Source: an uncultured Dongia sp. (GTDB lineage: Bacteria; Pseudomonadota; Alphaproteobacteria; Dongiales; Dongiaceae). Taken from it: a stretch of 41,321 bases of DNA. Under the pieces are notes generated by a model that had not been told where the DNA came from, did no database searches, and saw nothing but the letters and a program-made list of their open reading frames with translations. Below are positions 1,957-5,523 of this stretch, one piece after another (within the stretch, counting starts at the first letter, position 1; the number at the start of each line of letters is the position of its first letter). Position numbers and translations under genes: made by a program. Where the stretch lies: NCBI RefSeq assembly GCF_936916975.1, contig NZ_CAKZGO010000039.1:1-41321 (forward strand). The letters are read 5' to 3'.

Positions 1957-1982
1957 AACGACGACGCGCGATCGATCGTTCC
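1957..1982 (-). promoter_or_regulatory. EcfG-type promoter of the lipoprotein gene
   Basis: Read on the minus strand: GGAAC (1982-1978), 17-base spacer, CGTT (1960-1957). This matches the alphaproteobacterial general stress response consensus GGAAC-N16/17-CGTT exactly. The -10 element is 34 bases upstream of the lipoprotein ATG. Confidence 0.8.
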
Positions 1983-1989
1983 GCGTGAT

Positions 1990-2031
1990 GCACAAAAGAA
2001 AACGCACAAAAGAAAACGCACAAAAGAAAAC
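1990..2031. repeat. Three perfect 14-bp tandem repeats
   Basis: GCACAAAAGAAAAC is repeated three times without error (1990-2003, 2004-2017, 2018-2031). On the minus strand the repeats are T-rich. They follow the hairpin at 2032-2063 and come just before the -35 of the EcfG-type promoter at 1957-1982. They may serve as the U-rich part of the terminator and as an upstream promoter element. Confidence 0.9.
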
Positions 2032-2063
2032 GCTCTGTCACCCGGTGGGGCCGGGGACAGAGC
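2032..2063 (-). terminator. Probable intrinsic terminator after ecfG
   Basis: The arms GCTCTGTC (2032-2039) and GACAGAGC (2056-2063) pair perfectly. They are extended by CCCGG/CCGGG with one bulged base around a short G-rich loop. On the minus strand the hairpin is followed by GTTTTCTTTTGTGC repeats. It lies about 50 bases after the ecfG stop. Confidence 0.65.
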
Positions 2064-2111
2064 GAAAGGCTAGGCTACACGACGATAGACAGATTGAAGG
2101 ATCCGTCACCT

Positions 2112-2699
2112 CTAGCTGGCGGCGCGGAGAGCTTCCTGGTGATCGTTGGCAAAGCGCCGCTGGCCACGCCTGACCGTGCGGGCGGCACCGTCATCAGGCA
2201 CCGGCATGGCGATCTCGCCGGACAGCATGCGTTCAAGTTCGCGCCTGGCGCGGGCAAGGCGGGAGCGCACGGTCCCGATCGGGCAGCCACAGATCTGTGC
2301 CGCTTCCTCGTAGGAAAGATCCTGGCCCACCACCAGCAGCAGCACTTCGCGCTGATCGGGATTGAGGCCGTCGATGCCCCGAAACAGCTCTTTGAGGACC
2401 AGGCTGTGTTCCTGGTTAGGGGCGACACTCGCCAGATTGGGCAGGAGATCATCATCGATCTCGACCAGACGCGAACGCTGTCCGGCACGAATATTATTGA
2501 TGTGGATATTGCGCATGATGGTGAACAACCAGGCCTTGAGGTTGGTCCCCATGGCATAGAGGTCTTCCTTGCGCAGGGCGCGGAGCGCAGTGTCGTTCAC
2601 CAGATCGTCTGCCGATTGGCGATTGCGTGTGAGCATAACCGCAAAAGCCTTCATGGCCGGCAGCAATGCGACGAGTTGGTTTTGGAATGTATCGGCCAT
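2112..2699 (-). CDS. ecfG: EcfG-type general stress response sigma factor
   Basis: A 195-residue ECF sigma factor. Region 2 spans about residues 10-70 (SADDLVNDTALRALRK, then WLFTIMRNIHINNIR). Region 4 spans about 112-160 with the helix-turn-helix LSYEEAAQICGCPIGTVRSR. In alphaproteobacteria EcfG directs RNA polymerase to GGAAC-N16/17-CGTT promoters when freed from NepR, and a NepR-like gene lies immediately upstream. The start at 2699 is chosen because it has an AAAGGA ribosome site and a typical sigma N-terminus; the longer reading to 2828 adds a non-homologous, Pro/Arg-rich leader. After region 4 there is a basic tail of about 30 residues (VRRGQRRFANDHQEALRAAS). Transcription probably comes from the promoter at 3176-3201, with a hairpin between the two genes. 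Confidence 0.92.
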   Translation of the reverse strand: MADTFQNQLVALLPAMKAFAVMLTRNRQSADDLVNDTALRALRKEDLYAMGTNLKAWLFTIMRNIHINNIRAGQRSRLVEIDDDLLPNLASVAPNQEHSLVLKELFRGIDGLNPDQREVLLLVVGQDLSYEEAAQICGCPIGTVRSRLARARRELERMLSGEIAMPVPDDGAARTVRRGQRRFANDHQEALRAAS

Positions 2700-2753
2700 C
2701 GGTTGTCCTTTCGGTCGATTCAGTCGGGTCCAAGCGTCGAAGCGAGGCATCGG

Positions 2754-2773
2754 AAAAAGGCGCCACGTGGCGC
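2754..2773 (-). terminator. Terminator-like hairpin between nepR and ecfG
   Basis: GCGCCACGTGGCGC (2760-2773) is a perfect 14-base palindrome. On the minus strand it forms a 5-bp GC stem with an ACGT loop, followed within one or two bases by five T residues (2758-2754). It lies in the 176-base gap between nepR and ecfG, so it could attenuate read-through into ecfG. It might instead be a dyad protein-binding site. Confidence 0.5.
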
Positions 2774-2875
2774 TGGTTTCAAGATGGGGGTGTCCGGGTG
2801 ACAAGCCGAGCGACAAGGCGGGGCACAAGCTGTGACCGCGCCTCTCGATCCTAGGAATAAAAGGCTATTCTGGGA

Positions 2876-3124
2876 TTATTCGGTGATTTTGCCGTCCCGC
2901 TTGCCCATTTCACGATGAATGAGGTCGATCAGCTTCTGGTCGGGGGTGTGGTCGCAGGCCGCCATGAGGGTCTTCATCTGCCGCTCCAGCCACAGGTCGA
3001 AGGCCGGGGACGTGGTCATCGGCACAGCCCGCGCGAACCCAGTGACGGCCCCAGTGGCGGCCCCTGTGGCGGAAAGCTCGCCATCATTAGCTGGGCTGGT
3101 CGAATTGTTCCGTTTGCGCGGCAT
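2876..3124 (-). CDS. nepR: NepR-like anti-sigma factor
   Basis: An 82-residue protein with a disordered N-terminal half and the two-helix NepR core: SPAFDLWLERQMKTLMAACD, then TPDQKLIDLIHREM. In the family, NepR binds EcfG and keeps it inactive until phosphorylated PhyR captures NepR. No phyR or histidine kinase gene is visible in this window, so the partner switch must be encoded elsewhere. A GAGGAG ribosome site lies about 12 bases before the ATG, somewhat far but usable. The gene sits directly upstream of ecfG and downstream of a perfect EcfG-type promoter (3176-3201), which implies the usual positive autoregulation of the pair. Confidence 0.85.
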   Translation of the reverse strand: MPRKRNNSTSPANDGELSATGAATGAVTGFARAVPMTTSPAFDLWLERQMKTLMAACDHTPDQKLIDLIHREMGKRDGKITE

Positions 3125-3175
3125 CTGGTGGGGATACTCCTCAACGCCATTTCCGATGGCCCCTACGCCTTCGTT

Positions 3176-3201
3176 AACGACCGCTGAGAGCGCCTAGTTC
3201 C
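3176..3201 (-). promoter_or_regulatory. EcfG-type promoter of nepR-ecfG
   Basis: Minus strand: GGAAC (3201-3197), 17-base spacer, CGTT (3179-3176), a perfect match to the general stress consensus. It lies 51 bases upstream of the nepR ATG and predicts autoregulation of nepR-ecfG. Confidence 0.85.
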
Positions 3202-3232
3202 CCTGAGGCGCCCGAATCGGCGCAATACGGAG

Positions 3233-3664
3233 TTAACGGGTGAATTGGCGGAGGACCTGCTGCAAGAGCGCGTGGTCGAGGTCGGGACGGCTCTCCAGGA
3301 TGAAGCCGATGGCGCTGGCACCGAGCATAGCGCCCAGCGGATCGGCCTTCACCGCCGCGCTGGCGGCATCGCTGGCCATGGCGGCAAGTGCCGGTATGCC
3401 GGTGGCGACATTGCTTTGCGCCGCCTGGGCGGCCACTTTGCTCTTCTTGCCGCCCTGGGCGGCGACGGCGAGGATGAGCCCCAGGATGAGGAGCACCAGG
3501 GCCACCAGGCCCAGCGCCTGCGGCTGCGGCATCCAGTCCAGCAGCCAGTAATACAGCGCCGCCGCGGCCATACCGGCCGCGGCAAGCGATAGACAGGCCG
3601 ACATCACCAGCAGGATGGCCTGGCGTGCAAGTCGACCCGTCAGGCGATCAATCGATGCAAACAT
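3233..3664 (-). CDS. Small membrane protein, phage-holin-superfamily-like
   Basis: A 143-residue protein with two strong membrane segments near residues 16-40 (ILLVMSACLSLAAAGMAAAA) and 48-68 (QALGLVALVLLILGLILAVA). An Ala-rich, weakly charged tail follows. This resembles the putative actinobacterial holin-X/phage holin family proteins that often accompany DUF883 (YqjD/ElaB-like) proteins in proteobacteria; the assignment is by topology, not by clear motifs. The start lacks a strong ribosome site. It is last in a likely operon DUF1328 - DUF883 - this gene, with 29 bases separating it from DUF883. A role in envelope or stress physiology is inferred from context only. Confidence 0.7.
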   Translation of the reverse strand: MFASIDRLTGRLARQAILLVMSACLSLAAAGMAAAALYYWLLDWMPQPQALGLVALVLLILGLILAVAAQGGKKSKVAAQAAQSNVATGIPALAAMASDAASAAVKADPLGAMLGASAIGFILESRPDLDHALLQQVLRQFTR

Positions 3665-3693
3665 AAATCATGTCCCGCTGGTAATGATAAAGC

Positions 3694-3972
3694 TTAGCGC
3701 TGGGTGATCTTGCCCAGCATGATGCCGATGCCAAAGGCGAGCAGCAGGCTGGTGAGCGGGCGCGCGGTCACCTGTTCTTCGAGCACGCCGACGCCGGCCT
3801 GCACGCGTGCCTTGCCGCTATCAACTGCGTCGTTGAATTGCGCCGTGCCCTTCTTGGCCAGCAATTTGGCGATGTTCGACACGTCTTCCTTGAGCGTGCC
3901 GAGATCGTTCTTCAACACGTCGAATTCTTTATCCAGGCTGCGATCGACCATGGCGGCATTTCCTTCTTTCAT
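3694..3972 (-). CDS. DUF883 (YqjD/ElaB-like) inner membrane anchored protein
   Basis: I choose the start at 3972, giving 92 residues (MKEGNAAMVDRSLDKEFDVL). It has an AAGGAG ribosome site nine bases upstream, while the longer reading from 4005 would overlap the previous gene and has no such site. The protein has a long amphipathic helix with heptad character (about 10-60) and a single C-terminal membrane segment (PLTSLLLAFGIGIMLGKI) ending in basic residues. This is the architecture of DUF883 proteins, of which E. coli YqjD and ElaB are tail-anchored, ribosome-binding stationary-phase proteins. Its position in a stress island fits that role; ribosome binding here is not shown. Confidence 0.8.
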   Translation of the reverse strand: MKEGNAAMVDRSLDKEFDVLKNDLGTLKEDVSNIAKLLAKKGTAQFNDAVDSGKARVQAGVGVLEEQVTARPLTSLLLAFGIGIMLGKITQR

Positions 3973-3997
3973 ATTTTTGAACTCCTTGAGATAGACG

Positions 3998-4153
3998 TCA
4001 GACATAGGTGGCGACGAGGGAAACCAGGAACAGCACGATGAAGATCAAAAACAGGATCTTGGCGATGCCGGTCGCCGCCTGCGAAATGCCGCCGAAGCCG
4101 AACACGCCGGCTATGATGGCGACCACAAGAAAGATGACGGCCCAATAAAGCAT
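3998..4153 (-). CDS. DUF1328 (YtjA-like) small membrane protein
   Basis: A 51-residue protein beginning [20 protein letters not shown] and containing [15 protein letters not shown], then a second hydrophobic stretch [15 protein letters not shown]. This is the complete two-helix DUF1328/YtjA signature at the usual length. An AAGGAA ribosome site lies nine bases upstream of the ATG. It is the first gene of a likely operon with DUF883 and the holin-like gene. Function is unknown; in many proteobacteria these genes accompany CsbD and DUF883 in stress-induced clusters. The nearest recognisable promoter is the EcfG-type site at 4464-4488, which would give a leader of about 300 bases. Confidence 0.88.
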
Positions 4154-4463
4154 GCTCTGTTTCCTTCTGCCGATTGAACTCCGGCAAGGCGTGTTTCGCG
4201 CGCGTGCCAGGTGAAAATTTCGCCCCGATCAAGAGTGGCCCCGCGCACCGCAATGTCGTCGCCATACAACAGGGAGAAGTATGGCAACAAAATTGCGACA
4301 ACGCGGGGCCGTCCTAGGTGGCCGTGCAACCGGAGGGATGATCGCCGGGGGTCGTGTTGGCCAATTCATTGGATCGATGAATGGGCCTGCAGGGACTATT
4401 TGGGGGAATAGCACCTGCGGCGATCACGGGGTCGCTCCGGTCACGTCGCAACCACATGATAGA
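4154..4463. other. 310-base region without a convincing gene
   Basis: On the minus strand this is the predicted leader between the EcfG-type promoter at 4464-4488 and DUF1328. On the plus strand a 67-codon frame (4281-4484) starts at an ATG with a GGGAGA ribosome-like site; it reads MATKLRQRGAVLGG and has Gly-rich repeats resembling a glycine zipper, but the remainder is not protein-like and no promoter precedes it. I see no tRNA or recognisable RNA element. The region may hold a small RNA, a long leader or a decayed gene. Confidence 0.4.
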
Positions 4464-4488
4464 AACGCAGCACCCCAAATTTAGTTCC
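4464..4488 (-). promoter_or_regulatory. EcfG-type promoter upstream of the DUF1328-DUF883 operon
   Basis: Minus strand: GGAAC (4488-4484), 16-base spacer, CGTT (4467-4464), a perfect consensus match. The -35 overlaps the last codons of the disordered protein gene (CGG AAC TAA). The next clear minus-strand gene, DUF1328, starts 311 bases downstream. Confidence 0.7.
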
Positions 4489-4828
4489 GCGCTGGCTTGC
4501 GGCCGATTTCCTCAGCCCGTTCAAGCTCCTCGCCCTCCGGACTGTCGATCGCCCGCTTCGCGTCCTGGGCCTTGCGCTCGGTCCGGCCGGGGTTCTGGGC
4601 GGATTGCTGGGCGCCTTCGTTGTAATGGCGAGCGGCGGTCTTGTTACCTTCGCCCTCATTGGCCTGACTCGGCTGCCCGCCCTGCTGGCGCTGCTTGCCG
4701 CCGGCACCCTGCTGCTGCTGTGGCGACTTCACCGGGTCGGAGACAGTGTGACCCTGCTCGTGCTTTTCACCGGGCACTTCCATCGGGGGATTCTCGTTCG
4801 GGTTTTTTGGTGGGTTCTGGGTCGTCAT
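4481..4828 (-). CDS. Disordered, Gln/Pro/Gly-rich hydrophilic protein
   Basis: A 115-residue protein started at 4828 (MTTQNPPKNPNENPPMEVPG), where an AAGGAG site lies about nine bases upstream; an in-frame start at 4900 is rejected. The whole sequence is hydrophilic and low in hydrophobic residues. It has a Pro/Asn-rich head, a Gln/Gly-rich middle (SPQQQQGAGGKQRQQGGQ) and a charged helical tail (SPEGEELERAEEIGRK). It has no membrane segment or signal peptide. Composition is reminiscent of desiccation- or stress-protectant hydrophilins, but I recognise no family. It is the third gene after the two CsbD genes and is probably co-transcribed with them from the EcfG-type promoter at 5499-5523. Confidence 0.7.
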   Translation of the reverse strand: MTTQNPPKNPNENPPMEVPGEKHEQGHTVSDPVKSPQQQQGAGGKQRQQGGQPSQANEGEGNKTAARHYNEGAQQSAQNPGRTERKAQDAKRAIDSPEGEELERAEEIGRKPARN

Positions 4829-4872
4829 GATGCGAGCTCCTTGACTATGAGGTTTCGATGGATGGTCGCCCG

Positions 4873-5175
4873 TCAGGGTGCGACCACCTTGTTTTCCCAA
4901 TCCGTCACTTCCTTGTTCGCTTCTTCGACACTGATGCCGTAGAGCGCCTGGATACGGCCAACCAGTTGCTCACGCTGGCCTTGGATCTGCGCCAGATCAT
5001 CATCGGTGAGCTTGCCCCACTGCTCCTTGACCTTGCCCTTCAACTCAATCCAATTGCCTTCGATCTTGTTCCAGGCAGAACTTGTTTCGGTCGCAACTGT
5101 GCCTTCGGCCAACGCCATCGGCATCGTCGTCAGCAGGAAGGCGAGCGAACCCGCCACCGCAAGTGTCTTGCGCAT
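4873..5175 (-). CDS. CsbD-like protein with a signal peptide
   Basis: A 100-residue protein. Residues 1-23 form a clear Sec signal peptide (MRKTLAVAGSLAFLLTTMPM, then ALA before the cleavage site). The mature part has the CsbD core WNKIEGNWIELKGKVKEQWG followed by KLTDDDLAQIQGQREQL. CsbD proteins are small general stress proteins, SigB-controlled in Bacillus, normally cytoplasmic and of unknown biochemical role. Export is therefore unusual. The segment GKVKEQWGKLTDDDL is identical in the neighbouring CsbD (5251-5460), pointing to a duplication in which one copy acquired a secretion signal. The gap to the upstream csbD gene contains a terminator-like hairpin. Confidence 0.88.
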   Translation of the reverse strand: MRKTLAVAGSLAFLLTTMPMALAEGTVATETSSAWNKIEGNWIELKGKVKEQWGKLTDDDLAQIQGQREQLVGRIQALYGISVEEANKEVTDWENKVVAP

Positions 5176-5196
5176 GCTTCATCTCCTCTGATGTTC

Positions 5197-5228
5197 AAAA
5201 CCGCGCCGAGCTTCAAGCCATCGGCGCG
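5197..5228 (-). terminator. Hairpin terminator or attenuator between the two csbD genes
   Basis: CGCGCCGA (5202-5209) and TCGGCGCG (5221-5228) form a perfect 8-bp stem with an 11-base loop. On the minus strand it is followed by G then TTTT (5200-5197). It may terminate part of the transcription after the first csbD gene and lower expression of the secreted paralogue. Confidence 0.6.
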
Positions 5229-5250
5229 ATAAAGCCGCTAAGCGTGCGAC

Positions 5251-5460
5251 TTAGTTGCGCTTGGCGTAGCTGTGCTCGAAATGCTCAAGCTGCTTTTCGA
5301 CTTCAGCCTTGGCGATGCCATAGCGTTCCTGGAGCTTGCCGGCGAGCTGGTCGCGCTTGCCGCTGATCGTCGACAGATCGTCGTCGGTCAGCTTGCCCCA
5401 TTGCTCCTTAACCTTGCCCTTGGCCTGGTTCCAATTGCCTTCGATGATGTCCCAGTTCAT
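5251..5460 (-). CDS. CsbD family stress protein
   Basis: A 69-residue cytoplasmic CsbD protein, the usual size, starting MNWDIIEGNWNQAKGKVKEQ. The start at 5460 has a GAGGAG site about 7 bases upstream; the longer frame from 5499 overlaps the promoter and is rejected. The core includes WGKLTDDDLSTISGKRDQLA and the C-terminal helix KAEVEKQLEHFEHSYAKRN. It is the first gene after a perfect EcfG-type promoter (5499-5523), so it should be strongly induced in the general stress response. Biochemical function of the family is unknown. Confidence 0.92.
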   Translation of the reverse strand: MNWDIIEGNWNQAKGKVKEQWGKLTDDDLSTISGKRDQLAGKLQERYGIAKAEVEKQLEHFEHSYAKRN

Positions 5461-5498
5461 GGCGGTCTCCTCAGATGGTCTCGGATACTTGGGAGACA

Positions 5499-5523
5499 AA
5501 CGGGAACACGCGCCGAAGGTTCC
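5499..5523 (-). promoter_or_regulatory. EcfG-type promoter of the csbD operon
   Basis: Minus strand: GGAAC (5523-5519), 16-base spacer, CGTT (5502-5499), a perfect consensus match 38 bases upstream of the csbD ATG. The -35 lies in the centre of the inverted repeat at 5505-5533. Confidence 0.85.

Follow-up and report, generated by a model that had tools for sequence, protein, structure and literature searches.

The window analyzed here, the whole 41,321-base contig (C39) of an uncultured Dongia sp., harbors a nepR-type gene and an ecfG gene (designated nepR2 and ecfG2) which, by sequence comparison, form a paralogous second pair set apart from the main general stress response (GSR) locus of the same genome, together with four EcfG-type promoter motifs. 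The switch composed of PhyR, NepR, and EcfG is regarded as the core of the GSR in Alphaproteobacteria. We propose, with a probability of approximately 0.6, that the second NepR-EcfG pair acts on promoters of this type, its own included, and is probably freed, at least in two Dongia genomes where PhyR was not found, by something other than the PhyR switch. At the level of sequence, this proposal is supported by the motifs and their conservation, the paralogy of the pair, the homology of NepR2 to NepR, two genomes that returned no PhyR match, and an RNA structure; the use of the motifs as promoters, and the pairing of each with a particular sigma factor, are presumed.

Four EcfG-type motifs and a second NepR-EcfG pair

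A pattern scan for GGAAC-N16/17-CGTT returned exactly four matches in the window. All four lie on the minus strand and read as EcfG-type promoters ahead of the genes named here. Motif 1 (positions 1957 to 1982; N17) has its -10 edge 34 nt from the start codon of a lipoprotein gene, motif 2 (3176 to 3201; N17) precedes nepR2-ecfG2 with its -10 edge 51 nt from the nepR2 start, motif 3 (4464 to 4488; N16) abuts a candidate structured RNA and has its -10 edge 310 nt from the start of a DUF1328 gene, and motif 4 (5499 to 5523; N16) precedes csbD, its -10 edge being 38 nt from the csbD start. These are precisely the sites listed in a first-pass annotation of the same DNA, which had also estimated fewer than one chance match per window, an estimate borne out by an expected number of 0.50 and by the finding that none of 100 shuffles contained four or more. 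The neighbors which that annotation gave to the motifs were correct for the lipoprotein, nepR, and csbD genes but not for motif 3, which overlaps the end of a disordered-protein gene and is located far from DUF1328. At the genome-wide rate (78 strict matches in the 5,477,478 bases [5.48 Mb] of the window genome, G000), four motifs within 3,567 bp correspond to a Poisson P value of 2.7e-7 for an interval picked post hoc. A chance origin of the motifs was rejected on the basis of the shuffles, the sites kept in relatives, the gene-proximal placement, and the Poisson test.

Orthologous loci were compared from six genomes, five of the same genus (G001, G002, G003, G005, and G006) and one of another genus of the family (G012), where G005 is the isolate Dongia mobilis CGMCC 1.7660 (approximately 10 contigs, rated 100% complete) and G002 is a Rhodospirillaceae metagenome-assembled genome (MAG) of the genus Dongia (rated 98% complete); in G004, of the same genus, no EcfG of more than 48% identity was found. 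With the window included, the nepR2 promoter slot is filled in all seven loci (five strict, two TGTT), as is that of the csbD/disordered-protein group (six strict, one TGTT), the motif 4 slot directly preceding the disordered-protein gene in G001 and G006, which have no csbD at the locus. The DUF1328/RNA slot is filled in six of the seven (four strict, two GGTT), with no site found in G012; in Methylobacterium extorquens, GGTT is among the accepted -10 variants (PMC4814048). The mean pairwise identity of the nine core bases is 0.95, 0.97, and 0.94 for the nepR2, csbD, and DUF1328/RNA slots (7, 7, and 6 sites), and that of the spacers is 0.40, 0.43, and 0.34, respectively; the promoters of nepR2, csbD, and DUF1328 are, in other words, kept while their spacers diverge. 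In G001, G002, G005, and G006, the interval from ecfG2 to the SMP-30 gene has no called DUF6655 lipoprotein gene, and the G003 contig stops before this place. The lipoprotein gene flanking ecfG2 is known from the window genome alone and, because it is not at this place in the relatives, motif 1 lies beyond the conservation test.

EcfG2 (positions 2112 to 2699, minus strand) contains regions 2 and 4 of the extracytoplasmic function (ECF) sigma factors (Pfam), and its profile (A1) matches PDB 5uxx_A at 3.5e-45. In a tree of 120 rows, EcfG2 groups with its six orthologues and a single MAG protein in a clade (99/99) which is separate from the phyR-linked EcfG1 proteins of Dongia and is nested inside a broader EcfG clade (100/98); the latter holds 19 of the 21 rows labelled phyR-adjacent, the other 2 being different ECFs on those loci. 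The context is likewise that of EcfG (ECF15), with a nepR-type gene upstream and an EcfG-type promoter before the operon, while a phyR gene in the same locus, as is usual for the primary EcfG copy, is not seen. The single full PhyR of the window genome is encoded on contig C25, adjoined by its own nepR, ecfG (EcfG1), and a dCache/HisKA_2 kinase gene. The initial remark that no phyR is nearby, therefore, holds for the locus, but not for the genome, whose phyR locus is complete and lies on a different contig. The other match above the PhyR family cut-off, a 185-residue frame on contig C40, reads as an ordinary ECF.

NepR2 (2876 to 3124, minus strand) is, by profile-profile comparison, homologous to NepR and is predicted to be a divergent NepR-type anti-sigma factor. 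Comparison of its profile with that of canonical NepR using hhalign gave a probability of 94.5% (P of 7.6e-8), the maximum among 40 column shuffles being 7.1%, and the canonical profile in turn matches PDB 3t0y_B (named NepR) at 8.5e-10. The canonical-NepR model scores single NepR2 sequences weakly (the window's lowest, at 3.4 bits), and single-sequence searches returned no NepR family in Pfam or NCBIfam; the nepR label of the first-pass annotation is thus upheld at the profile level but not by any single-sequence family match. An AlphaFold2 model predicts a two-helix fold (residues 40 to 57 and 63 to 75, pLDDT of approximately 90) behind a disordered N terminus, with a mean pLDDT of 67 and a pTM of 0.32 for the whole model. 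In all seven genomes that carry NepR2, its gene is situated just upstream of ecfG2, and NepR2 is presumed to be the anti-sigma factor of EcfG2.

The EPxP loop is intact in none of the seven NepR2 proteins, which retain at most remnants (EP in G001 and G006, EP shifted by one position in G002, and PxP in G012), versus 11 of the 12 PhyR-linked NepRs of the family, the remaining one, from G012, reading EELP. The latter count was made on the NepR set found by profile in the 12 PhyR-bearing genomes of the family. The first canonical alignment (A3, 11 rows) was left out of it; having been gathered by a pattern which demanded PxP, its EPxP invariance is not independent. Two genomes also gave a weak third match to NepR, located away from nepR1 and nepR2 and with its EPxP intact (L283, G006:C2:303875-303994; L284, G013:C10:186567-186692).

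The genome scan that had been suggested as a check on the first-pass annotation yielded the 78 strict sites given above, compared with 47 for a control spacing of N19/20. Intergenic sites no more than 300 bp from a gene start were classed as promoter-positioned. Outside the window there are 74 strict sites, of which 31 are intergenic and 15 promoter-positioned, as opposed to 5 and 0, respectively, of the first 30 of the 47 control-spacing sites in contig order (15/74 versus 0/30; Fisher P of 0.004); across contigs C3 to C22, which the controls cover, 11 of 51 strict sites are promoter-positioned. Pfam analysis of the genes at 8 of the 15 sites named 6 (trehalose-phosphatase, hemerythrin, Ysc84, DUF305, PRC-barrel, and endo/exonuclease/phosphatase), with 2 having no family. 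A purely local regulon is ruled out by these 15 sites elsewhere in the genome. The original view of an ecfG-nepR pair embedded in its own local regulon, accordingly, stands in that three of the four motifs are kept in relatives, but gives way in that sites occur genome-wide and the pair is paralogous.

Retention of the pair where PhyR was not found

PhyR was sought in 17 genomes of the family using a full-length query and a profile of its sigma-like half, and was found in 12, including the window genome (at least 154 bits with the half profile). It was not found in G005, G002, G010, G011, or G014, which returned receiver-domain or ECF-like matches (at most 40.1 bits) only, G010 showing no match at all to the sigma-like-half profile. 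Canonical NepR was detected in the same 12 genomes and NepR2 in 7 of the 17; neither protein was found in G010, G011, or G014. D. mobilis (G005) and the MAG G002 carry NepR2, with neither PhyR nor canonical NepR found. Each of these two genomes has the left flank of the GSR block in the interior of a contig, where it continues into other genes, and each lacks a gene located past phyR and the kinase on the opposite side of the block. D. mobilis keeps the nepR2-ecfG2 promoters and gene order. Strict spacings account for 38 of the 100 matches listed first among its 137 N14-to-N20 matches (P of 0.026 versus equal spacings; a backwards-pattern control gave 379 matches) and, among these listed matches, 12 of the 38 strict sites are promoter-positioned versus 2 of 33 with other spacings (Fisher P of 0.007).

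It is proposed that EcfG2 would transcribe from GGAAC-N16/17-(C/T/G)GTT promoters, among them that of its own nepR2-ecfG2 operon, which would constitute positive feedback. Its further targets would comprise the csbD/disordered-protein group, the structured RNA, which the DUF1328, DUF883-like, and holin-like genes may or may not accompany, and the lipoprotein gene, and the genome-wide promoter set would probably be shared between EcfG1 and EcfG2. NepR2, lacking the conserved loop of canonical NepR, would restrain EcfG2. Because two Dongia genomes that yielded no PhyR still have the pair, release of NepR2 would probably, at least there, occur by means other than the PhyR partner switch. As suggested by this co-occurrence and by the lost EPxP, the NepR2-EcfG2 module may, therefore, work without PhyR. 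The fullest form of this proposal is tentative, and we would give it somewhat worse than even odds: a Dongia general stress module cut loose from PhyR, in which another route relieves the EPxP-less NepR2 and EcfG2 drives the local cassette along with scattered stress genes. In D. mobilis this would be the sole NepR-controlled stress response left, and in the four Dongia genomes that have PhyR as well it would, in addition, produce a new regulatory RNA, structured and with C-rich loops.

Several observations weigh against release by a route other than PhyR, or against the promoter assignments attached to it. PhyR is present in five of the seven NepR2 carriers, and the carriers in which it was not found number two, one of them a MAG. 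An altered loop is by itself no proof of lost PhyR control, since the PhyR-linked NepR of G012 is altered also. At an E value of 10, the NepR2 profile matched no PDB NepR chain, nor was NepR2 matched to Pfam NepR. Both G002 and G005 have TGTT rather than CGTT in their nepR2 promoters. Judged against a backwards-pattern control that differs in make-up, the strict motif is not over-represented genome-wide in the window genome (78 matches versus 196). Finally, 2 of the 12 promoter-positioned sites of D. mobilis belong to the EcfG2 locus itself and 2 precede one and the same gene (encoding a small protein whose counterpart in the window genome, with 73% identity over 79 residues, is likewise a target), and its scattered promoters need not belong to EcfG2, because this species has another EcfG-like sigma factor (G005:C3, 41% identity) with no NepR beside it.

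Other explanations of the pair were weighed against the same evidence. NepR2-EcfG2 could represent an ordinary accessory branch of the PhyR system, where EcfG1 activates nepR2-ecfG2 and PhyR frees EcfG2, with the D. mobilis pair being a leftover. Sphingopyxis is known to have EcfG paralogues arranged in a hierarchy (PMC7083833), a SigT/SigU hierarchy in Caulobacter is cited in PMC3892343, and the distribution of PhyR (12 of 17 family genomes and 5 of 7 NepR2 carriers) and the loop of the G012 NepR are compatible with such a branch. We nonetheless regard it as unlikely, if far from negligible, given that no NepR2 retains EPxP and that D. mobilis preserves the promoters, the gene order, and an excess of promoter-positioned motifs.

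That the four motifs serve EcfG1 alone, with EcfG2 reading a different promoter class, is improbable: EcfG2 is approximately 45% identical to EcfG1, and the EcfG paralogues of Rhizobium etli favor their own promoters (PMC3892343), but the region 4 stretch GT(V/I)(R/K)SR is kept in EcfG2, and both D. mobilis and G002, in which no phyR-linked EcfG1 locus was seen, keep the nepR2, csbD, and DUF1328 motifs. We consider it very improbable that NepR2 is a PhyR-binding decoy rather than an anti-sigma factor, as proposed for NepR paralogues of M. extorquens, two of which bound PhyR with no EcfG binding found (PMC4814048), as its gene lies just upstream of ecfG2 in every carrier, and two of these carriers show no PhyR.

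Two related arrangements were observed elsewhere. G010 (L055) and G014 (L059) possess EcfG-clade sigma factors, with no NepR or PhyR found, and in G030, a member of a different family, a nepR-ecfG pair stands next to a divergent single-domain response regulator (L080:7367-8808), with no PhyR match in 16 kb.

A candidate structured RNA and the surrounding genes

Motif 3 appears to start a conserved, covarying structured RNA of approximately 220 nt with a predicted GsrN-like anatomy (4236 to 4456, minus strand), a candidate EcfG-dependent RNA or DUF1328 leader comprising two domains and the C-rich loops UUCCCCCAA and CUCCCU. The stretch following motif 3, to approximately position 4236, is conserved in four Dongia genomes (G000, G001, G003, and G006; mean column identity across the full alignment, 71%), and the fold of positions 4200 to 4460 has a z score of -7.03, none of 200 shuffles being as good. 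In the alignment of these four sequences, from which the structure was itself derived, 15 of 64 pairs show changes on both sides and 93.3% of cells pair. This covariation score was reached by none of 500 shuffles and sliding the partners cuts pairing to at most 45.2%, while further pair types were not above shuffles (122 of 500). A coding function for the stretch was rejected, as its indels are not multiples of three, and no Rfam family was matched above chance, a SNORA84 match (E of 0.69, below the gathering score) being taken as fortuitous. Across 27 sources, the strong matches of the RNA model are its four source places only (132 to 162 bits; opposite strands, 17.7 to 33.5 bits). Matches elsewhere had E values of at least 0.16, and no copy was found in the G002, G005, or G012 loci, which were also searched by blastn. 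The RNA is present in the four Dongia that have both NepR2 and PhyR and is not at the locus in the two in which PhyR was not found; this co-occurrence is not independent evidence, because the four form one EcfG2 clade.

A regulatory function of this RNA is presumed. That it is instead the structured leader of the DUF1328 mRNA, with no separate small RNA, falls a little short of an even chance: DUF1328 follows in the same direction, and in G002 and G005 the motif lies approximately 100 and 50 nt before DUF1328, respectively, with the RNA model finding nothing there. Conversely, conservation is poor between the covarying part and the ribosome-binding region and start codon, as though the covarying part were a separate unit, and the loops are C-rich.

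On the minus strand, the gene order is csbD, a second csbD, the disordered-protein gene, DUF1328, the DUF883-like gene, the holin-like gene, nepR2, ecfG2, and the DUF6655 lipoprotein gene. The first two encode CsbD-like proteins (5251 to 5460, Pfam PF05532 at 80 bits; 4873 to 5175, PF05532 at 67.3 bits, with a signal-peptide-like start as judged by eye). DUF1328 (3998 to 4153; PF07043, 57.8 bits) specifies a membrane peptide, and the gene after it (3694 to 4005), whose place is kept in five Dongia relatives, a product for which no Pfam family was found; its DUF883 name, carried over from the first-pass annotation, is presumed here. The next product (3233 to 3664) is a small membrane protein weakly resembling holin superfamily III (PF07332, 15.9 bits, below the cut-off of 28.4), and the lipoprotein (1326 to 1922) belongs to the DUF6655 family (42 bits, cut-off 27), with a lipobox, LSTGC, recognized by eye. 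The hydrophilic disordered protein (4481 to 4828), earlier considered unassignable, proved to carry a C-terminal module that recurs in Alphaproteobacteria, with matches in 9 of 190 genomes, 2 of the 9 being Dongia. A strict EcfG motif lies at most approximately 110 bp upstream at four of the seven non-Dongia loci; a fifth locus has the TGTT form, and the remaining two have none. In G141, a superoxide dismutase-like open reading frame (L201:907-1668; identified by eye) contains this module in frame near its end and has a TGTT-type EcfG motif upstream.

Variations on the cassette were seen in other genomes. The csbD gene with the signal peptide seems to be shortened in G003, where a 43-residue frame alone was called (L067:2935-3066). 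Genes named by eye as csbD, DUF1328, DUF883-like, and holin-like are located beside a canonical or other EcfG locus in the family members G004, G009, and G007 (L077, L078, and L079), which hints at a former position of the cassette beside phyR. Around the EcfG2-like sigma gene of an alphaproteobacterial MAG (L116), no motif was found in 10.5 kb, nor any tblastn match at E of 0.01 to nepR2, csbD, DUF1328, the DUF883-like gene, or the disordered protein.

Additional EcfG-type motifs were noted at the canonical loci. A near-palindromic GGAACC...GGTT(CC) element between nepR1 and phyR, present in eight of nine loci (L064:7595-7621 and the same place in L073 to L076, L078, L079, and L083, but not L081), reads as an EcfG-type promoter on both strands at a 2-base offset, the -35 on one strand sharing bases with the -10 on the opposite strand; one side is TGTT in L079. 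An extra EcfG-type motif (CGTT/TGTT) directly precedes ecfG1 in the four Dongia loci examined (L064:7056-7080, L073:7668-7692, L074:3332-3356, and L075:8347-8371) and in none of the five other canonical loci; as it is downstream of nepR1, EcfG1 may boost itself without its inhibitor.

Relation to known systems

The window locus resembles the PhyR-NepR-EcfG (ECF15) response in its EcfG-clade sigma factor, its upstream nepR-type gene, its GGAAC-N16/17-CGTT promoters, and csbD as a predicted target, csbD being a direct GSR target in Sphingopyxis (PMC7083833). It differs in having no phyR at the locus, a NepR2 without EPxP, and two carriers in which PhyR was not found. Extra copies of EcfG and NepR are well described (PMC4814048, PMC7083833, PMC3892343, PMC8103513, and PMC5830050), and the presence of an additional ecfG and/or nepR beside the canonical set is shared with Sphingopyxis granuli, R. 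etli, and M. extorquens. Those species have PhyR, however, whereas the Dongia pair is kept in two genomes where it was not found. Within the accessible parts of the open-access literature, we found no description of a nepR-ecfG pair in a PhyR-less species, and no publication on EcfG in Dongia was found in the open-access literature. A PhyR-less species that keeps nepR-ecfG and its promoters would represent a natural experiment, both on NepR control without PhyR and on those NepR residues which are needed for PhyR.

By published description (PMC5869019), GsrN-like RNAs have an EcfG promoter, are encoded close to GSR genes, and expose a C-rich loop. In its sequence and predicted structure, the Dongia RNA shares with Caulobacter GsrN and the GsrN-like RNAs of Rhizobiaceae an EcfG-type promoter, proximity to GSR regulators, and a C-rich loop. 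Unlike GsrN, it spans approximately 220 nt in two domains and is known here from sequence alone, the likeness being one of anatomy; as a covarying RNA behind an EcfG-type promoter, it would be a further candidate for the short list of described small RNAs that depend on the GSR.

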